A stretch of DNA of 29,846 nucleotides from the IMG/VR virus record IMGVR_UViG_3300005613_000304, positions 1-29,846 of that record. One strand, written 5' to 3'. A program made the position numbers and the translations under genes. The notes beneath the pieces are model-generated. The model saw only the letters and a list, made by a program, of their open reading frames with translations. It did not search any database and was not told where the DNA came from. The DNA is from a virus. Positions 2,519 to 26,232 of the stretch are shown here, in pieces; the first letter of the stretch is position 1, and each line of letters starts with the position of its first letter.

Positions 2519-3367
2519 ATGAAAACAGGCGTGTTTTTTGACGTCCCAATGGACGAGTATCTTGCCGTTGAGGCTTTGTCAGCTTCAGGGGCAGAATGTT
2601 TGATATCACACGGGAAATGGGGGTTTTACATGCGAAACCTTCACCCCGATCGCGAACGAAGGCAGACCAACGCGCTTGCCGACGGCGAGCTGTTACACAC
2701 GTATCTACTCGAACCCGAGCGATTCGGGCGCGAATACATGCGGGGACCGGACGGGCCGGAGGACAAACGGTTGAAGATCTGGAAGGAAGCGATCGCAGAA
2801 GCCGAGGCGTCGGGGAGGCAAATCCTGAAACCCTCCCAGTACGAATGGCTGGCCCGGTGCAGAGCGGAGGTGGAAGCCCACCCATTCGCGAAATCTGCCA
2901 TCCTGAGCGACCAGGGACTCTCGGAGGTCACTGTCTACTGGGAAATGGGCGGCGTCCCGTGTAAGGCCCGATTTGACCGTTTGATGCCGAAGATCGGAAT
3001 TGATTTAAAAAAGACCAGAGACGCATCGGACGAGGGGTTCATGCGCGAGGCTGAACGCTACCGGTACGACATCAAGGCGTCCTGGTATCTGAGCGCATGC
3101 CAGGCAATGCTGGCGCTCGGAGATGACCGATTCCAACAGACGCATTTCGGGTTCGTTGCCGTCGAACAGAACTGGCCCCAGCTTGTGAACGTGTTCGCCT
3201 ACGAGATCGACGACCTGCGGCGGGCAGACCGGCAGATTGCTGCGGCGGTGGAGCTGTACCGCGACGGTCTGGAGAACGGATGGGGCCGGGATGACCTGCA
3301 CGTCAAGCGTCTGCACCTTCCGGCATGGGTCAAAAACAGGGAGGACGACGATGATGTCGGAGCGTGA
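2519..3367 (+). CDS. RecE-like exonuclease, PD-(D/E)XK nuclease superfamily
   Basis: A 282-residue protein matching the phage exonuclease family (DUF3799 / C-terminal RecE type). The N-terminus SASGAECLISHGKW and the segment ALADGELLHTYLLEPERF fit the family's start, where a conserved 'G-x-x-x-H' helix follows the substrate-binding loop. The catalytic core is visible as R-F-D153 followed by D162-L-K164 (GIDLKKT), then an alpha helix with Tyr (YDIKASWYLSACQAML). Such enzymes resect one strand of linear double-stranded DNA and hand single-stranded DNA to a partner annealase, here the RecT gene 200 bases downstream. GGAGGT lies 8 bases before the ATG. The length is right for the stand-alone nuclease module, far shorter than full E. 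coli RecE. Confidence 0.85.
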   Translation: MKTGVFFDVPMDEYLAVEALSASGAECLISHGKWGFYMRNLHPDRERRQTNALADGELLHTYLLEPERFGREYMRGPDGPEDKRLKIWKEAIAEAEASGRQILKPSQYEWLARCRAEVEAHPFAKSAILSDQGLSEVTVYWEMGGVPCKARFDRLMPKIGIDLKKTRDASDEGFMREAERYRYDIKASWYLSACQAMLALGDDRFQQTHFGFVAVEQNWPQLVNVFAYEIDDLRRADRQIAAAVELYRDGLENGWGRDDLHVKRLHLPAWVKNREDDDDVGA

Positions 3368-3605
3368 ACAGCTTCACGATTTGAAGCGAAGAGCTACTGC
3401 GATAGCTGAATTGATTCACTCGTTGAACATAGACATTGCGAAGTTTTCTATTGCCCAGGGCGGTAAAATCGACAATGACAAGGCGTGGTTTCGGTGGTTC
3501 TGCCGGGCGTTTGCGAAATCTGGAACAATCAAGACCTGCATGGTAGATTTCAATCTATTTTTGAGAAAGGCAGTTGAGCATTATGACAAACCAACAGATA
3601 GTTAA
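3351..3605 (+). CDS. small protein between exonuclease and RecT, unknown function
   Basis: An 84-residue protein (83 if the second of two adjacent ATGs is used). It overlaps the exonuclease end by 17 bases and ends 20 bases inside the RecT gene, so translation is probably coupled to both. GGAGG stands 5 bases before the start. The N-terminal half is a charged helix (EQLHDLKRRATAIAEL) and the centre is aromatic (KAWFRWFCRAFAK). No family is recognised. Its place between the two arms of a recombination pair suggests an accessory or regulatory role, but that is context only. Confidence 0.7.
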   Translation: MMSEREQLHDLKRRATAIAELIHSLNIDIAKFSIAQGGKIDNDKAWFRWFCRAFAKSGTIKTCMVDFNLFLRKAVEHYDKPTDS

Positions 3606-4485
3606 GCGCGACCCACGGGTCGACAGGCTGAACGTACTTGTGGCGAAATCTATGCCCGAGCTGGAGAAGACCATTCCGGCATCGATGCGCAAGCACCTGA
3701 CCCCCGACCGAATCACCAAAATCATCATCTCGGCAACGCTGCGACAACCGAAACTCCTCGAGTGTGAACCGGCATCCATCCTCAAAGCAGCGATGACTGC
3801 AACGAGCCTGGGGCTTGAGTGCGACGGCGTTCTCGGTGGCGCCTACCTCGTGCCTTACGGCCGGGAGGCCCAGTTCATCATCGGCTATCGGGGCTTGATT
3901 GAGCTGGCACGGCGCAGCGGGAACCTCACCAGCATCGAGGCCCACGTCGTGCGTAGGGGTGATTCGTTCCGTTGCAAGCTAGGCACTGAGGGTTCAATTG
4001 AGCATGAACCTAACTGGGAAGCCGACGAGCTGGGGGAGATGTTCTGTGTGTATGCGGTCGCGAAATTCCGGGACGGTGGTGGGCATCAGTTCGAGGTGAT
4101 GACTCGCGCCCAGGTCGATGCGATTCGGAAGTCCTCCAAGGCCGGAAACTTCGGGCCATGGAAAGACCATTACGAAGAAATGGCGAGGAAAAGTGTGGTT
4201 AGACGTCTATGCAAGTACCTCCCATTATCTGTGGACGTGCGGCAGGCATTGGTTGCAGAGGACGACAGCGCAGAACCGCCTAGGACAAGCACGGTAACCG
4301 AGGTAAACGCAATTCTGGGGGAATCTATCGATGCACAGGCATCACAAGGGCACACGGATCTATCTAGAGTCGACCGAGGGATTGAATCCACAGGACTTAG
4401 CGCGGTTCTCGACCCTGGAGCCGACGACGGGCCGGTGGTACACGATGGACAGTCGCATCGCCGAGGCGTGGAAACTGGGGATTGA
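3583..4485 (+). CDS. recT: RecT-type single-strand annealing protein
   Basis: A 300-residue RecT family annealase. Family hallmarks are clear: the early helix with IPASMRKHLTPDRITKI, the core segment SILKAAMTATSLGLECDGVLGGAYLVPYG, the phrase FIIGYRGLIELARRSG, and the late MARKSVVRRLCKYLPLS. RecT-type proteins coat and anneal complementary single strands made by the partner exonuclease. They can serve repair, genome circularisation or exchange with resident prophages. The start could be TTG at 3574, but ATG at 3583 (MTNQQIV) is the more usual choice. The last 65 residues or so are low in similarity to the family and share DNA with the next gene over about 155 bases. Confidence 0.92.
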   Translation: MTNQQIVKRDPRVDRLNVLVAKSMPELEKTIPASMRKHLTPDRITKIIISATLRQPKLLECEPASILKAAMTATSLGLECDGVLGGAYLVPYGREAQFIIGYRGLIELARRSGNLTSIEAHVVRRGDSFRCKLGTEGSIEHEPNWEADELGEMFCVYAVAKFRDGGGHQFEVMTRAQVDAIRKSSKAGNFGPWKDHYEEMARKSVVRRLCKYLPLSVDVRQALVAEDDSAEPPRTSTVTEVNAILGESIDAQASQGHTDLSRVDRGIESTGLSAVLDPGADDGPVVHDGQSHRRGVETGD

Positions 4486-6414: not shown

Positions 6415-7626
6415 ATGGTCAAAATACATAAGCAAATTGTCATGATGGAAATCAAGAAGCTGAAACCGTATGAGCGGAATGCTAAGAAGCATCCTGCCTC
6501 ACAGATCGACCGGTTGGCAATGCACATCGAGGGCGTCGGGTGGGACCAGCCTATCGTCGTGGACGAAGACATGGTCATCCTCAAAGGCCACGGTAGGGCT
6601 ATGGCGGCGCGCAAGATCGGATTGACCGAGGTTCCCGTCATCGTCGCCGAAGGGCTGTCAGAGGCCCAGAAAAAAGCCGTGCGCCTGGCCGACAACAAAC
6701 TGGCGGAGTCCGAATGGGACGAGGACTTGCTGAAACTCGACCTCGGGGATTTGGAGCTGGCCGGGTGGGACGTGGGGGAACTGGGGTTTGAGGGGTTTGA
6801 GCTGGAGGGAGAAGGCGATGGTGGCACCGAAGGCAACACCGACCCGGACGCCGTGCCAGAGGACGCGCCAGCGGTGGCGAAGAGGGGGCAGATTTGGCAG
6901 CTCGGCAAGCATCGGGTGATGTGTGGGGATTCGACCAGTGAGGCGGATGTTGGGCGGTTGATGGGGGGAGAAAATGTTGATTTGTGCTTTACAGATCCCC
7001 CTTATGGAATTTCAGTGGTGGGCGGTGGCGGAACGCCTAAGTTCGGAAAGGTGGGCGGTGGCGGAACGCCTAAGTTCGGAAAGGTGGGCGGTGACAAGGT
7101 GGTCCCATCTAAAACGTATCGAGTCGTCGAAGGTGATAATGACACCGAAGTTGCAAAAAAAGCGATAGAAATAATCATAAAGTATTCTAAAAACCAGGTC
7201 ATATGGGGTGGGAATTATTTCACTGACTGTTTAACACCATCTCGTTGCTGGTTCATATGGGACAAGCAGAACACTGGAAACTTTGCCGACGCAGAGTTGG
7301 CTTGGACTTCATTCGATAAATCTGTTCGTATTTTTCAATGGACGTGGAATGGAATGAGTCGGCAAGGAAATCGAAAAGATGAAGGAAAAACTAGAGTTCA
7401 TCCAACTCAAAAACCAGTTGGGCTATTTTGTCTATTGTTTGCCGAACTAGAGTTTAACACCTGTTTTGAGCCTTTTTTGGGATCAGGGTCAACGTTGATA
7501 GCGTGTGAAAAATCAGGAAAGCAATGTTTTGGAATCGATATCGAGCCTCACTACATTGATACGGTCATCAAACGCTGGGAGGAATTCACGGGCAACAAAG
7601 CCGAACTGATCGAGGATGCATCATGA
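6415..7626 (+). CDS. ParB-like domain fused to a DNA N4/N6 methyltransferase
   Basis: A 403-residue fusion. Residues about 10-100 are a ParB/Srx-like nuclease-binding domain (PYERNAKKHPASQID, then ILKGHGRAMAARKIG with the G-H-G-R motif, then LADNKLAE). After an acidic linker (about 130-160) comes a beta-class methyltransferase: DPPYG at 194-198 and FLGSGST at 354-360. The order catalytic motif first, SAM motif last defines the class. Such proteins methylate adenine-N6 or cytosine-N4 in phage DNA and often sit beside terminase. They may mark DNA for protection or packaging. The stop overlaps the small-terminase start (ATGA). The methylase half, from about 7120 to 7550, is clearly AT-richer than the ParB half, which suggests domain-level exchange. 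GGGAGG precedes the ATG. Confidence 0.88.
   Translation: MVKIHKQIVMMEIKKLKPYERNAKKHPASQIDRLAMHIEGVGWDQPIVVDEDMVILKGHGRAMAARKIGLTEVPVIVAEGLSEAQKKAVRLADNKLAESEWDEDLLKLDLGDLELAGWDVGELGFEGFELEGEGDGGTEGNTDPDAVPEDAPAVAKRGQIWQLGKHRVMCGDSTSEADVGRLMGGENVDLCFTDPPYGISVVGGGGTPKFGKVGGGGTPKFGKVGGDKVVPSKTYRVVEGDNDTEVAKKAIEIIIKYSKNQVIWGGNYFTDCLTPSRCWFIWDKQNTGNFADAELAWTSFDKSVRIFQWTWNGMSRQGNRKDEGKTRVHPTQKPVGLFCLLFAELEFNTCFEPFLGSGSTLIACEKSGKQCFGIDIEPHYIDTVIKRWEEFTGNKAELIEDAS
7018..7083 (+). repeat. 33-bp perfect tandem duplication inside the methyltransferase gene
   Basis: Two identical 33-base units, 7018-7050 and 7051-7083, are followed by a partial third (7084-7093). Each encodes VGGGGTPKFGK in frame, residues 202-223. 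The duplication sits right after the DPPYG motif, in the loop that usually leads to target recognition. Confidence 0.92.
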
Positions 7627-20860: not shown

Positions 20861-22495
20861 ATGGGCATGCGAACACCGATCAACCTATTCGAGATGGGTG
20901 TGCAGCCGACTGCACCCGGTCAGATTCCTGCAGCTCAGGCTGCGCAGGCGGCACAAGCGCCATCCCAAGAACCGCTGCCGGGCGAGACCCCAGCCCAGTA
21001 TCAGGCCCGGATGGCTCAGGGCGGAGCGATCCCCCAGGGGGCGGTCCAAGTGGACAATCCGCTGGTAGCTGCCGTAACCAACCTGAAGGATGGTGGTGGA
21101 GCGGCACCAACTAGTGAAGCACCGGCCCCCGACGAGCGCCCACCGGTTCCACCCCAACCAGAACAGGCGGCGGGCGGAATGGTGATGCCCGGGGGAATGG
21201 TCTACACACCTCCGACCACCGAGACGATGACCCAGACGACAATCAAGCCGGGGGATCCTCGAGCACTGGCCATGGTCGGCGAGGTAAACGCAGCCCAGCA
21301 ACAGTGGACTCAAGCCTATCAGGCGTCCCAACGGGAGATGGAGAAGATCGACCGGGACATGGCGCAGGACGAAATCTTGAAGCAAGCCATGGATGCCAAA
21401 CAGGGAGAGCTGAAACAGCTTCTAGACAGTCCCGACACATTCAAAGCGACCGTCGACCGTGTCGCTAAACTCCGCGACCAGTTTGACCAGGCCGTGACTC
21501 GTTCCGTGCAGCGGGTGGACCCCAACAAGTTCTGGTCCGACCGTGACGTCGGCGACCGGGTGACCGGCGGGATCGCCCTTCTGCTCGGCGGGCTGGCGCA
21601 GGGGTTCGGTGGTGGAGGCGGGGAAAACCCAGCGTGGCGAATCATCGACCAAGCCATCACCCGCGACATCGAGGCCCAGAAGTTCAACATTGCGCAGGCC
21701 CGAGAAGAGGCTGCTATGTTCGGTGACCAAATCAACACCGAGCTGGCCCTGCAGAATTGGGTGGACAAAAAGAAGGTCGAACGGCTGGCCATGGCTGACG
21801 CTCTGATTGTCTCCTCGCTGTCTCAGTACGAGGCGCGGGCCAAGACGGTGGAACAGAAGCGGGCTGCGGCGTCGGCACTGTATGAGGCAAATATAAGAGC
21901 AGCAGAAAGCAAAAGAGCGGTTTACGAAATGGCAATGGACCAAATCACCACCACGGTTCAGAGCCAGCAGAAGGCCGGGAAGCTGGGTGCTCCAGAGGGC
22001 TATGAATGGACGCCATGGGGATACGCCCCGTCCAAGGAAGGCAGCAAGGTTATTAGTCAGGCTGCAGTGACGCATGACGAGATTGGCGACCTTCTGCGAC
22101 AGATGGAAAACCACGTCAACACAGTGGGAACGACGGCATGGTCTCGCGATAGCAAGGGCAAGGCTCTAGCGCTGGCCAACAGATTCGTCGGTCTGCAATC
22201 GCAAATCATGCAATCAGGTACTCTCGGCGAAAGCGAGTACGCTCGATATATGGAAAACAGCCCAATCACACTCGACTATTTCGATGGACTGAAGGACCGT
22301 GAGCAGGCTATCGCGACTTTGCGGGAGATGCGCCGACAAAACACCACGACCGCTATCAATATGGCACGGAGCTACATCCCGCAGCAGTTTATCCGATTCC
22401 CAGAGCATGCGGGTGGCCTACGTGAAGCGTGGAAAACAGCAACGGGCAGAGCCGTGCCGTCCGATTACAAACGACAGCAGGGCGGGGGCAAATAA
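20861..22495 (+). CDS. internal virion/ejection-type protein 2
   Basis: A 544-residue protein. Residues 1-130 are Pro/Ala/Gln-rich and probably disordered. From about 140 a coiled coil begins (AQQQWTQAYQASQREMEKID). Then comes a Gly-rich hydrophobic segment (GGIALLLGGLAQGFGGGGG, about 228-246) followed by ITRDIEAQKFNIAQAREEAA, a combination seen in internal virion proteins of several phages. The C-terminal half is helical with alternating charges. The stop overlaps the start of the next, giant gene (TAATG), so the three ejection-type proteins are probably made in a fixed ratio. No enzyme motif is visible. Confidence 0.6.
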   Translation: MGMRTPINLFEMGVQPTAPGQIPAAQAAQAAQAPSQEPLPGETPAQYQARMAQGGAIPQGAVQVDNPLVAAVTNLKDGGGAAPTSEAPAPDERPPVPPQPEQAAGGMVMPGGMVYTPPTTETMTQTTIKPGDPRALAMVGEVNAAQQQWTQAYQASQREMEKIDRDMAQDEILKQAMDAKQGELKQLLDSPDTFKATVDRVAKLRDQFDQAVTRSVQRVDPNKFWSDRDVGDRVTGGIALLLGGLAQGFGGGGGENPAWRIIDQAITRDIEAQKFNIAQAREEAAMFGDQINTELALQNWVDKKKVERLAMADALIVSSLSQYEARAKTVEQKRAAASALYEANIRAAESKRAVYEMAMDQITTTVQSQQKAGKLGAPEGYEWTPWGYAPSKEGSKVISQAAVTHDEIGDLLRQMENHVNTVGTTAWSRDSKGKALALANRFVGLQSQIMQSGTLGESEYARYMENSPITLDYFDGLKDREQAIATLREMRRQNTTTAINMARSYIPQQFIRFPEHAGGLREAWKTATGRAVPSDYKRQQGGGK

Positions 22496-25400
22496 TGGCG
22501 CACGTCTTCGACTACGGCCAAAACAAATGGGTGGACATGCCCGACGAGCAGGTCACTGAAGCCGTCAAAAGCGGCATGGTGCAGTTCGGACAGGGCCGAA
22601 AGATCCAGGTCTTCGATTGGGAGGGAAATCCCACCCTGGTTGACGCCGATGAAGCCAGCCAGGCTTTCCGAAACGGCTACAGCTACGCAGGGCCATCGAT
22701 GATGTCGCAATACCTGCGACAAGAGGGCGAGCGCCTGCAGCTCGAAGCCCAGGACACTCCGATGGGCATGGTGGCCGCTCCTATCCTGGGTGCGGCCCGG
22801 TCTCTTACGTTCGGTGGGTCCGACGCTTTGATTCGCGCCACCTACGGGCAGGAGGGCGTAGACGCGGTTCGGTGGAACGAAAAGGCAAACCCCAACCTGA
22901 CAATGGCTGGTGAGATCGCGGGGGCCGTGACTCCCATCGGTCTGCCGGGTGCCGTCGCTCGGGTGGGAATCCGGGCTGGAGCTCGAGCTGGAGCGCGGGC
23001 AGGACTGGCCACGAGTCGGACGATCCAAGCCGTGGGCGCTCGCATCGGCGCACCTGCTTTGGGTTCCAAGCTGGGTTCCCTGGCGGGCGGAGTCGTCGCC
23101 CGGGGCACCGTGCCTGCCGTGGCTGGTGCGATTGAGGGCGGGGCGTTCGGCGTTCAGCAGTCCATCAGTGATTTCGCGTTGGACCGGGCCGAGGCGACAG
23201 CCGAGAACGTCATCGCTAACGTGGGTTTGGGTGCCATGTTGGGCGGCGGGATCGGGTTTGGCATGGGAGCGGGTGGCAAGCTTTTGCGCGAGACCGGCAA
23301 AGCTGCCATGGACTGGCAGAAGACCACCAAGGCAGTGCCGTTTCGTCAGTTCATCAAGACTACCTACCCAAAGGTCTTCAAGGCGATGCGCGGTCTCAAG
23401 GGCGAGGCAGCCGATGCCGTTGATCGAGTATTCGATGACGAGAAGCTGGCTCAGCGGATTTTCAACCTCCAGGACAACCCGGAGGCCACTGTCGACGAGC
23501 TGGTCGGCGCAATCGAAAGCCTGCGCGACATGGGCAGGACGATTGAGGCAGGCGTGGGGGAGGTTCGGAAGGGGATTGTTAAATCCCTTGATGGAACTAC
23601 CTCAGAAATAAAATTTGGCATCCCGAGGGATGTCGTATCAGAGCCGGGATACGTCTATCACGCAACCAATGCTGACGGTATCGACGGGATGATTCGCTCC
23701 AGAAAAGTCGACGTTTACAGTCCGAGTCATGGCACGCCTGAACAAGACGTTTGGCCAGACATGACGGATGAGATGCGGTCATATTGGAATCGAGACCCAC
23801 AGATCGCAAAAGACTTTGTACCGACTGCAGGCGGCAGAGAAGCGATTGTCAGAACGAAAATGACTCCTGATTTCAAAGTTGAAAGAGGAACAGGTGACAT
23901 TGTTAGAACGACGCCATTATCTACGAAAAACGTGGAGATCCTGACAGACGATGGATGGAAACCGCTGGCGCAAGCGCAGGAAGTAAACTACCCGAAAGGG
24001 TCATTAAAGATATCCACTGGAACTTCTAACCTCCGCACTATCCGCAAGCAGTGGCGGGGCGTGGGGGAGGTTCGGAAGAGGGTGATTAAACAACTGGACG
24101 ATGCGCAAGCTCCACAGTTGTTTCATGGCAGAGCGGACGGTGACGTGCTGACCGATGGCGTCAAACAGTGGTCGCAAGACATCAACGTCGCTGATTCATA
24201 CGCTGGAAAGACCGGTTCTGTATGGCAGTTGAAGCCAGGAACCAAGTTGGTCGATGCAAATCGAGTCAAAATGCAAGTGCTCGAAGAGATCGAACGATCG
24301 CCAGCATATCCGAACTGGATCTACGATGTGGATATGTTTGAAAAAAACCCTTTGAAATATCTAGATCCTATCGACCCAGAGGAAATTGTGACGTCCGCGG
24401 GATTTTGGGACAATCCCGAGTTTGTGGACTGGTTTTCTACAGTATTCCCTGATGTATCTGCCATAAAAACCAATAATGGAGCAGTCTCACTAAATCCATC
24501 ATTAGGGACTAGAATAGATAAAGGAATAATTGAAGGCCAGAGGGTAATTAAGCCAGAAAAAGGGATCGACCTCCGTGCCATCCGCAAGCAGTGGCGGGGC
24601 GTGCAGAAAGCTTTCGATCAAGACCCGTTCATTCAGCAAGTGCGACGAAGCCCAAACGTCTATGGCGGCAAAACGCTCACCCTCATTGAGGAAGCATCAA
24701 ACGAGATCAACCTTGCAATGCGCAAGGCCAAGACTCCCAGCGAGGCTCACGACGCCATCAGGACCGTACTCACAGACATCAATCAGGCTTTCACCCGGTA
24801 CAAGCAATCGGGAGAAGTGTCGTTCGATGCACTTGCCAAATGGCGCGACAGTGCCAACAAGTTTTCAAGAAACACCAAAATATGGGGAAAAGAGGCGAAA
24901 CTCTATGGAGATGTGAACGACTCATGGGGGCGGTTCATGGCAGCCCGCAATCAGTTGTTTGGCACGACCAGGGAAAACGTCGGCGTCTTCATGCGCAAGA
25001 ATCCCGTGACAAAAAAGATTGAGATGGACCCCAAGAAAATCCGCCTGTACCTCGAAAAAGCGGCCCAGCCTGAAACGAGGCAGCTCCACGATGCCATCAA
25101 GGTCTATGAGAACGAGGCTGCACGGATGGCTGGGCACATCAAGCGTGGCAACGTGCCAACCAACATGCTCGTGACCCCAGACGAGGCCCTGGAGATGATC
25201 GCCAAGTCGAGGGAGGTCGTGGATGACCTCTTTTTCGCAAAGGCCAACAACGTCCTTTTCAACCGGCAACAGAGCTGGACGGGCCGAGCTCTGCAGGCCG
25301 GCCAGACCCTCGGTGTCGGTGGCATCCTTCCCGGCGCGATGCTCGGTGGACCCCTCGGGGCGATGGCAGGCGCAGCCTTGGGAACAACTCTGGGCGCGGC

Positions 25401-26232
25401 ACTGTCTGAACCTCGGTTCATGATGCGATACGCCCACGGCGTGGCTTTGAGTCAGACTGAGATGGCCAAGCGGGTCAATGGCGTGGTCAAATCCTTTTTG
25501 AACAACAAGCCGGTCATGCAACGCCTGGGGGCTGCGGCCACCCTGGGGGCGAGCTACACGATGGCGCGAGCGGCCCACAGTCTCGGGGTGCAACGGGAAC
25601 GGGGCGAGGCGGAGGTCGACTACCTCACCCGTGCCGTATGGCAGTATGCCGGAAAGCCGATGGAGATGGAAAACGCGATGCGGCAATCCCTGTATGGGAT
25701 GCCTGGGGCGCTCCCAGAGGCCTACTACCCAACAGTGAACGCGGCCCAGCGGGCGGTGGATTTCCTGTCTACCAAGGTGCCCCCACCGTCGCAAGACCCG
25801 TTCGAGCCCACCACACCCGAGCGGATGAGCATTGGACAAGAGGCCGAGCTGCAGAGCTACACCGAGGCGATTTGGAAGCCCGGCAAGATTCTGGACGAGA
25901 TGCGCGACGGGACGCTGAAGACCGAGACGATTGACGCAGTGCGTGCGGTATATCCCGAGTTCTACCGGGAAGTGACCGGCAAAGTCCTCGAAGAGCTTGC
26001 CAGCCGGAAGCTCAAACTGTCGCAGGCGCAGCAGGTTGACGTGGCACTCCTGCTTGGCAGGCCGCTGACGTACGGGCTACAGAATCTCGACACAATGCAA
26101 ACAGCGGTGCAGATGGCTCGCAGCCAGGATGGGCAGGATTCTCAACCACGGAAATCAACCGGGCCGAGCAAGACGGCCACACTCGCAATGAGCGGATCCC
26201 AGGAACTACAGGCACGTCGGAGGGAAGGATAA
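22495..26232 (+). CDS. giant internal/ejection-type protein with two ADP-ribosyltransferase-like cassettes
   Basis: A 1245-residue protein; the start overlaps the previous stop (TAATG). Residues 1-75 form a small beta module. About 100-290 and 939-972 are Gly/Ala-rich and could span membrane (PGAMLGGPLGAMAGAALG). The centre holds two AT-richer cassettes. The first, about 363-512, has YVYHATNADGIDGMIRSRKV with H389 and an S-Y pair at 429-430. The second, about 535-690, has QLFHGRADGDVLTDG with H544 and ADSYAGKTGSVW with Y569. His and later Ser-Tyr are typical of H-Y-E ADP-ribosyltransferases and of 'ART-PolyVal' domains in phage polyvalent proteins; the catalytic Glu cannot be assigned by eye. 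Long helical parts on both sides (for example LIEEASNEINLAMRKAKT) resemble ejected proteins. If active, the ARTs would enter the host with the DNA, like T4 Alt. Confidence 0.68.
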   Translation: MAHVFDYGQNKWVDMPDEQVTEAVKSGMVQFGQGRKIQVFDWEGNPTLVDADEASQAFRNGYSYAGPSMMSQYLRQEGERLQLEAQDTPMGMVAAPILGAARSLTFGGSDALIRATYGQEGVDAVRWNEKANPNLTMAGEIAGAVTPIGLPGAVARVGIRAGARAGARAGLATSRTIQAVGARIGAPALGSKLGSLAGGVVARGTVPAVAGAIEGGAFGVQQSISDFALDRAEATAENVIANVGLGAMLGGGIGFGMGAGGKLLRETGKAAMDWQKTTKAVPFRQFIKTTYPKVFKAMRGLKGEAADAVDRVFDDEKLAQRIFNLQDNPEATVDELVGAIESLRDMGRTIEAGVGEVRKGIVKSLDGTTSEIKFGIPRDVVSEPGYVYHATNADGIDGMIRSRKVDVYSPSHGTPEQDVWPDMTDEMRSYWNRDPQIAKDFVPTAGGREAIVRTKMTPDFKVERGTGDIVRTTPLSTKNVEILTDDGWKPLAQAQEVNYPKGSLKISTGTSNLRTIRKQWRGVGEVRKRVIKQLDDAQAPQLFHGRADGDVLTDGVKQWSQDINVADSYAGKTGSVWQLKPGTKLVDANRVKMQVLEEIERSPAYPNWIYDVDMFEKNPLKYLDPIDPEEIVTSAGFWDNPEFVDWFSTVFPDVSAIKTNNGAVSLNPSLGTRIDKGIIEGQRVIKPEKGIDLRAIRKQWRGVQKAFDQDPFIQQVRRSPNVYGGKTLTLIEEASNEINLAMRKAKTPSEAHDAIRTVLTDINQAFTRYKQSGEVSFDALAKWRDSANKFSRNTKIWGKEAKLYGDVNDSWGRFMAARNQLFGTTRENVGVFMRKNPVTKKIEMDPKKIRLYLEKAAQPETRQLHDAIKVYENEAARMAGHIKRGNVPTNMLVTPDEALEMIAKSREVVDDLFFAKANNVLFNRQQSWTGRALQAGQTLGVGGILPGAMLGGPLGAMAGAALGTTLGAALSEPRFMMRYAHGVALSQTEMAKRVNGVVKSFLNNKPVMQRLGAAATLGASYTMARAAHSLGVQRERGEAEVDYLTRAVWQYAGKPMEMENAMRQSLYGMPGALPEAYYPTVNAAQRAVDFLSTKVPPPSQDPFEPTTPERMSIGQEAELQSYTEAIWKPGKILDEMRDGTLKTETIDAVRAVYPEFYREVTGKVLEELASRKLKLSQAQQVDVALLLGRPLTYGLQNLDTMQTAVQMARSQDGQDSQPRKSTGPSKTATLAMSGSQELQARRREG
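23551..24078 (+). repeat. 21-bp direct repeat marking the start of each ART cassette
   Basis: The same 21 bases occur at 23551-23571 and 24058-24078, 507 bases apart, encoding GVGEVRK in frame. The codons that follow are similar (KGIVKSLD and KRVIKQLD). The copies lie just before the two ART-like cassettes. Confidence 0.88.
24040..24603 (+). repeat. 24-bp direct repeat bordering the second ART cassette
   Basis: Twenty-four identical bases occur at 24040-24063 and 24580-24603, exactly 540 bases apart, encoding IRKQWRGV. The similarity extends upstream (NLRTIRKQ and DLRAIRKQ). The second cassette is thus framed by two copies of the linker, as expected from tandem duplication or homologous cassette exchange. 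Confidence 0.88.

Follow-up and report, generated by a model that had tools for sequence, protein, structure and literature searches.

Could a single particle protein of a short-tailed phage carry two host-modifying enzymes into the cell along with the DNA? The question is raised by a 29.8-kb virus record (IMGVR_UViG_3300005613_000304, 29,846 nt; all of it analysed and here called the window), in which one uninterrupted frame encodes a protein of 1245 aa. A sequence-only reading had placed this protein among the podovirus ejection proteins and had seen in its centre two different ADP-ribosyltransferase (ART)-like cassettes, which the particle would deliver as T4 does with Alt. We favour, with moderate confidence, a gp16-like ejection protein that carries payloads, with cassette 1 a real ART and cassette 2 a separately acquired payload (Table 1).

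Table 1 Features of the window discussed in the text (positions in nt of the window)
Feature	Position	Strand	Remarks
PDDEXK-type protein gene	2519-3367		DUF3799 family
RecT-like annealing protein gene	3574-4485
Portal gene	10003		upstream of the 1245-aa gene
Major capsid gene	12938		upstream of the 1245-aa gene
Tail protein gene	15953		upstream of the 1245-aa gene
956-aa protein gene	16930		phrog_511 'internal virion protein' match
1245-aa presumed gp16-like ejection protein gene	22495..26232	+	one uninterrupted frame; scaffold plus two inserted cassettes
Gly/Ala-rich hydrophobic segment 1	22885..23334	+	about aa 131-280; 41% G+A; Kyte-Doolittle peaks 1.3-1.5
Connector repeat A, copy 1 (GVGEVRKGIVK)	23551..23583	+	33 nt; D2 family; 88% identical to 24058-24090
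Cassette 1 core	23584..24027	+	predicted ART domain; conserved part aa ~380-493
H389 codon (YHAT, strand 1)	23659..23661	+	first of presumed H-Y-D triad; invariant 13/13
Y430 codon (RSYW, strand 2)	23782..23784	+	second of presumed triad; invariant 13/13
D468 codon (GTGD)	23896..23898	+	presumed third of triad; TGD invariant 13/13
Connector repeat B, copy 1 (LRTIRKQWRGV)	24029..24063	+	35 nt; D1 family; 91% identical to 24569-24603
Connector repeat A, copy 2 (GVGEVRKRVIK)	24058..24090	+	D2 family
Cassette 2 core	24094..24567	+	ART-like motifs only; H544 24124-24126, Y569 24199-24201
Connector repeat B, copy 2 (LRAIRKQWRGV)	24569..24603	+	D1 family
DNA connectors			GGCGTGGGGGAGGTTCGGAAG and CATCCGCAAGCAGTGGCGGGGCGTG
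Gly/Ala-rich hydrophobic segment 2	25255..25464	+	about aa 921-990; 34% G+A; Kyte-Doolittle 1.3-1.4

The two cassettes indeed lie back to back in the centre of the open frame, and the span first assigned to them, 23585-24570, agrees with the edges given by repeats and by composition. Direct repeats bound both cores in the layout A-core1-B/A-core2-B, with the first B running into the second A at the hexamer GGCGTG (24058-24063), which belongs to both. The best 33-nt match inside the gene was 30/33, compared with at most 24/33 in 40 codon-shuffled genes. Over the 30 nt immediately inside the cores, identity is down to 27% and 23%, and the cassette edges are therefore sharp: the two units have their ends in common and their middles not. 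Both cores are also AT-richer than the flanks, as the sequence-only reading had noticed, with a GC content of 0.484 (core 1) and 0.462 (core 2) vs 0.631 (N-flank) and 0.592 (C-flank). GC3 is high in the N-flank (0.727), the middle connector (0.773) and the C-flank (0.716) and low in core 1 (0.466) and core 2 (0.462). The difference from the flanks is significant for either core (Fisher p 3e-9 for core 1 and 5e-10 for core 2), and the three connectors, when pooled (GC3 in 35/45 codons), differ from the cores (p 2e-5). This contrast suggests that the cores are foreign to the scaffold and that the connectors belong with it. The cores are not the sole low-GC coding stretch of the window, 6910-7600 being lower still. 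Judged from this mosaic, recombination appears to have stacked foreign payloads inside a GC-rich ejection protein.

Cassette 1 is very likely an ART, as judged by family alignment and structure prediction. AlphaFold, given a 13-member alignment, returned a model with a pLDDT of 86.9 and a pTM of 0.79. The best solved structures found with Foldseek were KptA/Tpt1 (probability 0.99; E 0.018, which is not below 0.001), and Tpt1/KptA was also the best match in VIA-align (Z 8.2, rmsd 2.3, 82 aligned), where all of the best 50 matches listed are ART-fold proteins (Z 8.2 to 5.5), including ART toxins (about 7), the Rhs ART toxins TreX/TreTu (6.8), Arr (6.3) and DarT (5.7). A Z near 8 alone is ordinary; it is the unanimous match list, together with the invariant order of H, Y and D, that points to the ART fold. 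The sequence-only reading had placed its four named residues correctly, with H389 in YHAT and Y430 in RSYW of cassette 1 and H544 in LFHG and Y569 in SYAG of cassette 2. To the first pair we add D468 as the presumed third catalytic residue, assigned by conservation and order, not geometry. A presumed triad of the H-Y-[EDQ] type is present in 13/13 members alongside the predicted fold. Cassette 1 lacks the R-S-E (Arg-Ser-Glu) active site and has H-Y-D, which Iyer et al. 2017 (PMC5512222) describe for the active sites of polyvalent-protein ARTs.

The family to which cassette 1 belongs has no name and includes 12 other phage loci at 27-40% identity. The conserved part of the cassette matches the C-terminus of PHROG 3147 (E 1.4e-19) and that of a 575-aa mycobacteriophage Bixzunavirus protein (40.5% identity over 114 aa; tblastn E 3e-18), and matches were found in 181 mycobacteriophage records among the 50,697 phage records searched. 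Scans of viral contigs supplied further relatives, bringing the alignment to 13 members, in which YH, Q, WPD, RxY, FxP, R, E, TGD and WxP are invariant. Pfam and NCBIfam have no model for the family; weak Pfam matches to Tox-ART-HYD1 appeared in 2/13 members and to KptA in 1/13, and neither of the window's cassettes matched ART-PolyVal (PF18760). Searching PDB sequences with the cassette 1 profile returned chance-level matches and a weak DarT match only (E 0.7-1.1), and a method requiring exact peptide words found no relatives of either cassette in genome contigs.

Most of the relatives lie in large proteins of 439 to 2510 aa, with neighbours that include a portal gene (contig L018), a head protease and a major head protein (L008) and a virion structural protein (L020). 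The Bixzunavirus homologue adjoins tRNA genes, and recognisable virion genes are not around it. Among other phage polyvalent proteins, that of L014 (24-7556) has the cassette-1-type domain paired with a Pfam ART-PolyVal domain (E 1.7e-28), and in L006 (5176-7458) it occurs with a weak ART-PolyVal match. Several further features of these relatives were seen in passing. A putative gene in L009 (3983-4375) is a 130-aa open frame consisting of the cassette-1 ART domain alone. In L016 (2483-8476), an FFHATT segment lies, by eye, just upstream of the cassette-1-type ART. The 'ParB-like' gp83 of mycobacteriophage MoMoMixon (L002, 1621-3348; 575 aa), which has a cassette-1-type C-terminus and gave no Pfam match, shows by eye two more stretches with ART-like motifs, KIYRGIS...HWTT and LVHFTRPEIRDKII...YSFFTT.

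Cassette 2 gave no match in Pfam, PHROGs, NCBIfam or PADLOC and no confirmed relative in viral or genome contigs, and its single-sequence AlphaFold model was unusable (pLDDT 31.6). An origin as a duplicate of cassette 1 was rejected (hhalign probability 0.2%; no DNA similarity just inside the cores), as was membership in ART-PolyVal: hhalign against an ART-PolyVal alignment of 8 sequences from other phages scored 9.4, below the shuffled mean of 11.6, with no signal above the 60 shuffles. Also rejected as a relative was gp33 of Salicola phage SCTP-2 (database E-value 4; independent C-terminal tail test failed, P 0.30). Pairwise, gp33 is 26% identical to cassette 2 over 122 aa and shares HGRxDG and NVAxxY with it, at a z of 10 that is no evidence, the match being the best pick of the whole collection; a protein that looks like a VanY-like carboxypeptidase scores comparably against gp33, which we keep as a lead only.

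These results bear directly on the proposal of the sequence-only reading that the protein holds two catalytically active ARTs, each with its own target, which we consider possible, with the balance leaning against it. By eye, H544-G in cassette 2 is followed by [S/T]...NVA..Y and a late hydrophobic stretch in an order resembling that of ARTs. What the poor model shows of secondary structure (strand 13-17, helix 25-28, strand 46-50, helices, strands 125-129 and 135-139) is not in conflict with an ART, and relatives such as L014 join a cassette-1-type ART with ART-PolyVal. However, the below-shuffle hhalign score, the lack of a Pfam match and the low pLDDT argue against it, and where cassette 1 has its strand-2 Tyr, cassette 2 reads by eye Q558/W559. 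Because Y569 aligns by eye with F441 of cassette 1, it is probably not the strand-2 residue if cassette 2 is an ART. Of the two ARTs proposed, then, cassette 1 stands on its family alignment, confident model and ART-fold matches, but cassette 2 found no profile or structure support; we regard it as a second payload, possibly but not demonstrably another ART.

The repeats and composition suggest how such a protein may have been assembled. Each core would have come from a lower-GC source and been placed between connectors A (GVGEVRK..IVK) and B (LR.IRKQWR). The simplest routes to the arrangement A-C1-B/A-C2-B would be an in-frame fusion of two one-cassette versions at the shared hexamer, or a tandem duplication after which one core was replaced. 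The phage's own RecT-like annealing protein could have done the joining, and the PDDEXK-type protein may also supply recombination; the DUF3799 PDDEXK-like and RecT-like neighbours are likely a RecE/RecT-type recombination pair. Searches with the terminase and the 956-aa protein led to one related phage contig, L021, which stops before the 1245-aa gene; a relative with a single cassette, or with neither, did not turn up. A more speculative extension, to which we give only tentative credence, is that the middle of the protein is a payload exchange site, where related phages would hold different, mutually unrelated effector cores between the same A and B, recombination at these connectors would exchange or stack them in frame, and cassette 2 would be an effector of an undescribed family. 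This predicts other cores between the same connectors in relatives and, if true, would amount to polymorphic-toxin-like payload swapping inside a DNA-ejection machine.

Is the scaffold itself an ejection protein? The 1245-aa gene lies downstream of the terminase as well as of the structural genes in Table 1, in the order 956-aa gene, 352-aa gene, 544-aa gene, 1245-aa gene, 575-aa gene; the product of the last has a weak carbohydrate-binding-module match, just under the Pfam cut-off. In T7-like phages, the gene order is gp14-gp15-gp16-fibre. The Gly/Ala-rich segments that had been described as fit for membrane contact are present and hydrophobic, both cassettes sit between them, and a basic stretch, ARRREG, ends the protein. 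T7 gp16 is likewise large, with 1318 residues, two putative transmembrane regions and a basic C-terminus (PMC8954989). The window's protein thus resembles gp16 in its place after the tail genes, its size, its two hydrophobic regions (recognised from hydrophobicity only) and its basic C-terminus; it differs in that the enzymatic domain of gp16 is an N-terminal peptidoglycan hydrolase, whereas here the enzyme would be an internal ART cassette. At the sequence level, the scaffold showed no PHROG match at E below 0.02, no Pfam match and no relative among the 50,697 phage records; in viral contigs, phages and plasmids, matches outside cassette 1 were absent, and no homology was detected to known ejection proteins, T7 gp16 included. 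The placement among podovirus ejection proteins is therefore supported by position and general anatomy, by analogy with gp16, but not by homology.

This leaves the alternative that the scaffold is a polyvalent protein merely encoded among virion genes, which we consider unlikely. Its absence of homologues and PHROG matches is compatible with that view, as is the lack of a lytic transglycosylase domain. On the other hand, the gene is the third of three large genes between a putative tail nozzle gene and fibre-like genes, like T7 gp14-15-16, and its product approaches gp16 in length, paired hydrophobic regions and basic terminal stretch (PMC8954989).

Taking the protein as gp16-like, we infer the following course of infection. 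The 1245-aa protein would be packed in the particle and then ejected, so as to span or cross the envelope. After ejection, the C-terminal domain of T7 gp16 protrudes into the cytoplasm (PMC8954989), and with a comparable topology the cassettes could reach this compartment, where NAD+ is. Cassette 1 would enter the cell with the DNA, bind NAD+ in the cytoplasm and transfer ADP-ribose to a protein or nucleic acid of the host early, before phage gene expression; cassette 2 would probably add a second activity. It is quite improbable, in our judgement, that cassette 1 is instead a degraded or purely structural ART fold (e.g. for binding only) kept for the ejection machine. Enzymatic domains are swapped among ejection proteins, which gain and lose them (PMC8954989), but the presumed triad and the WPD, E and TGD motifs are intact in 13 divergent copies on unrelated scaffolds, which argues for selection on catalysis, and the domain also exists as a stand-alone frame. 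Iyer et al. 2022 (PMC9503650) mention that ARTs encoded close to packaging genes might instead protect the packaging apparatus from immune attack. A late action inside the infected cell (e.g. on rival phages or the phage's own virion proteins) is equally improbable in our judgement, since the size, position and hydrophobic segments of the protein match gp16-like ejection proteins, which enter the cell.

The comparison with T4 Alt is apt for delivery and for the general reaction, Alt being an ART that arrives with the virion and modifies host proteins as infection begins. It fails for the clade: Alt belongs to the R-S-E clade, in contrast to the H-Y-D of cassette 1, and is a myovirus head protein, not part of an ejection scaffold. 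Arr, the rifampin ADP-ribosyltransferase, is a small H-Y-D enzyme. Its structures (PDB 2hw2, 9iaf) share the ART fold with cassette 1 (Z 5.6-6.3, 14-18% identity), but it modifies a drug, stands alone and has no detectable sequence relation to cassette 1. The Bixzunavirus 'ParB-like' proteins (PHROG 3147) have a C-terminal domain homologous to cassette 1 with all motifs kept, yet it is part of an unrelated 575-aa protein beside tRNA genes, with no ART annotation in the records seen. The phage polyvalent-protein ARTs (PF18760; PMC5512222) have the H-Y-D configuration and occur, one or several, inside very large multi-domain proteins of the virion region. The 1245-aa protein has the make-up of a polyvalent protein, joining an ART cassette and a second foreign core to a large non-ART scaffold among virion genes. 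Cassette 1 lies outside PF18760, in its separate unnamed family, and a further difference is that the cassettes here are flanked by near-identical direct repeats, within a scaffold whose composition is unlike theirs.

Several divergent ARTs in one polypeptide had been put forward as a new variant of this theme. They are not: several ARTs in one injected polyvalent protein, up to 12 copies, have already been published (Iyer et al. 2017, PMC5512222), L014 also pairs two, and virion packaging of phage ARTs is known from the literature. What appears to be new is that the cassette 1 family can be assigned to the ARTs, that such a domain lies in a podovirus-type ejection scaffold, and that two cassettes stand there side by side, bounded by repeats. 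In a broad survey, ~3% of podoviruses encode any ART (PMC9503650). If our reading is right, it would link DNA ejection in a short-tailed phage with the delivery of enzymes that modify the host, and the repeat-bounded cassettes would illustrate in concrete terms how polyvalent proteins acquire domains. The assignment also provides a function prediction for the PHROG 3147 C-terminal domain family across its mycobacteriophage records.

Two further observations concern other genes of the window. The 361-aa product of 14581-15666 matches its 128-aa counterpart in L021 only over aa 1-102 and 337-361; the ~235 aa extra have no Pfam match, and their GC3 is normal. The gene at 6415-7626 encodes a ParB-like N-terminus fused to a DNA methyltransferase; no other coding stretch of the window is as AT-rich as the 3' part of this gene (about 6910-7600).
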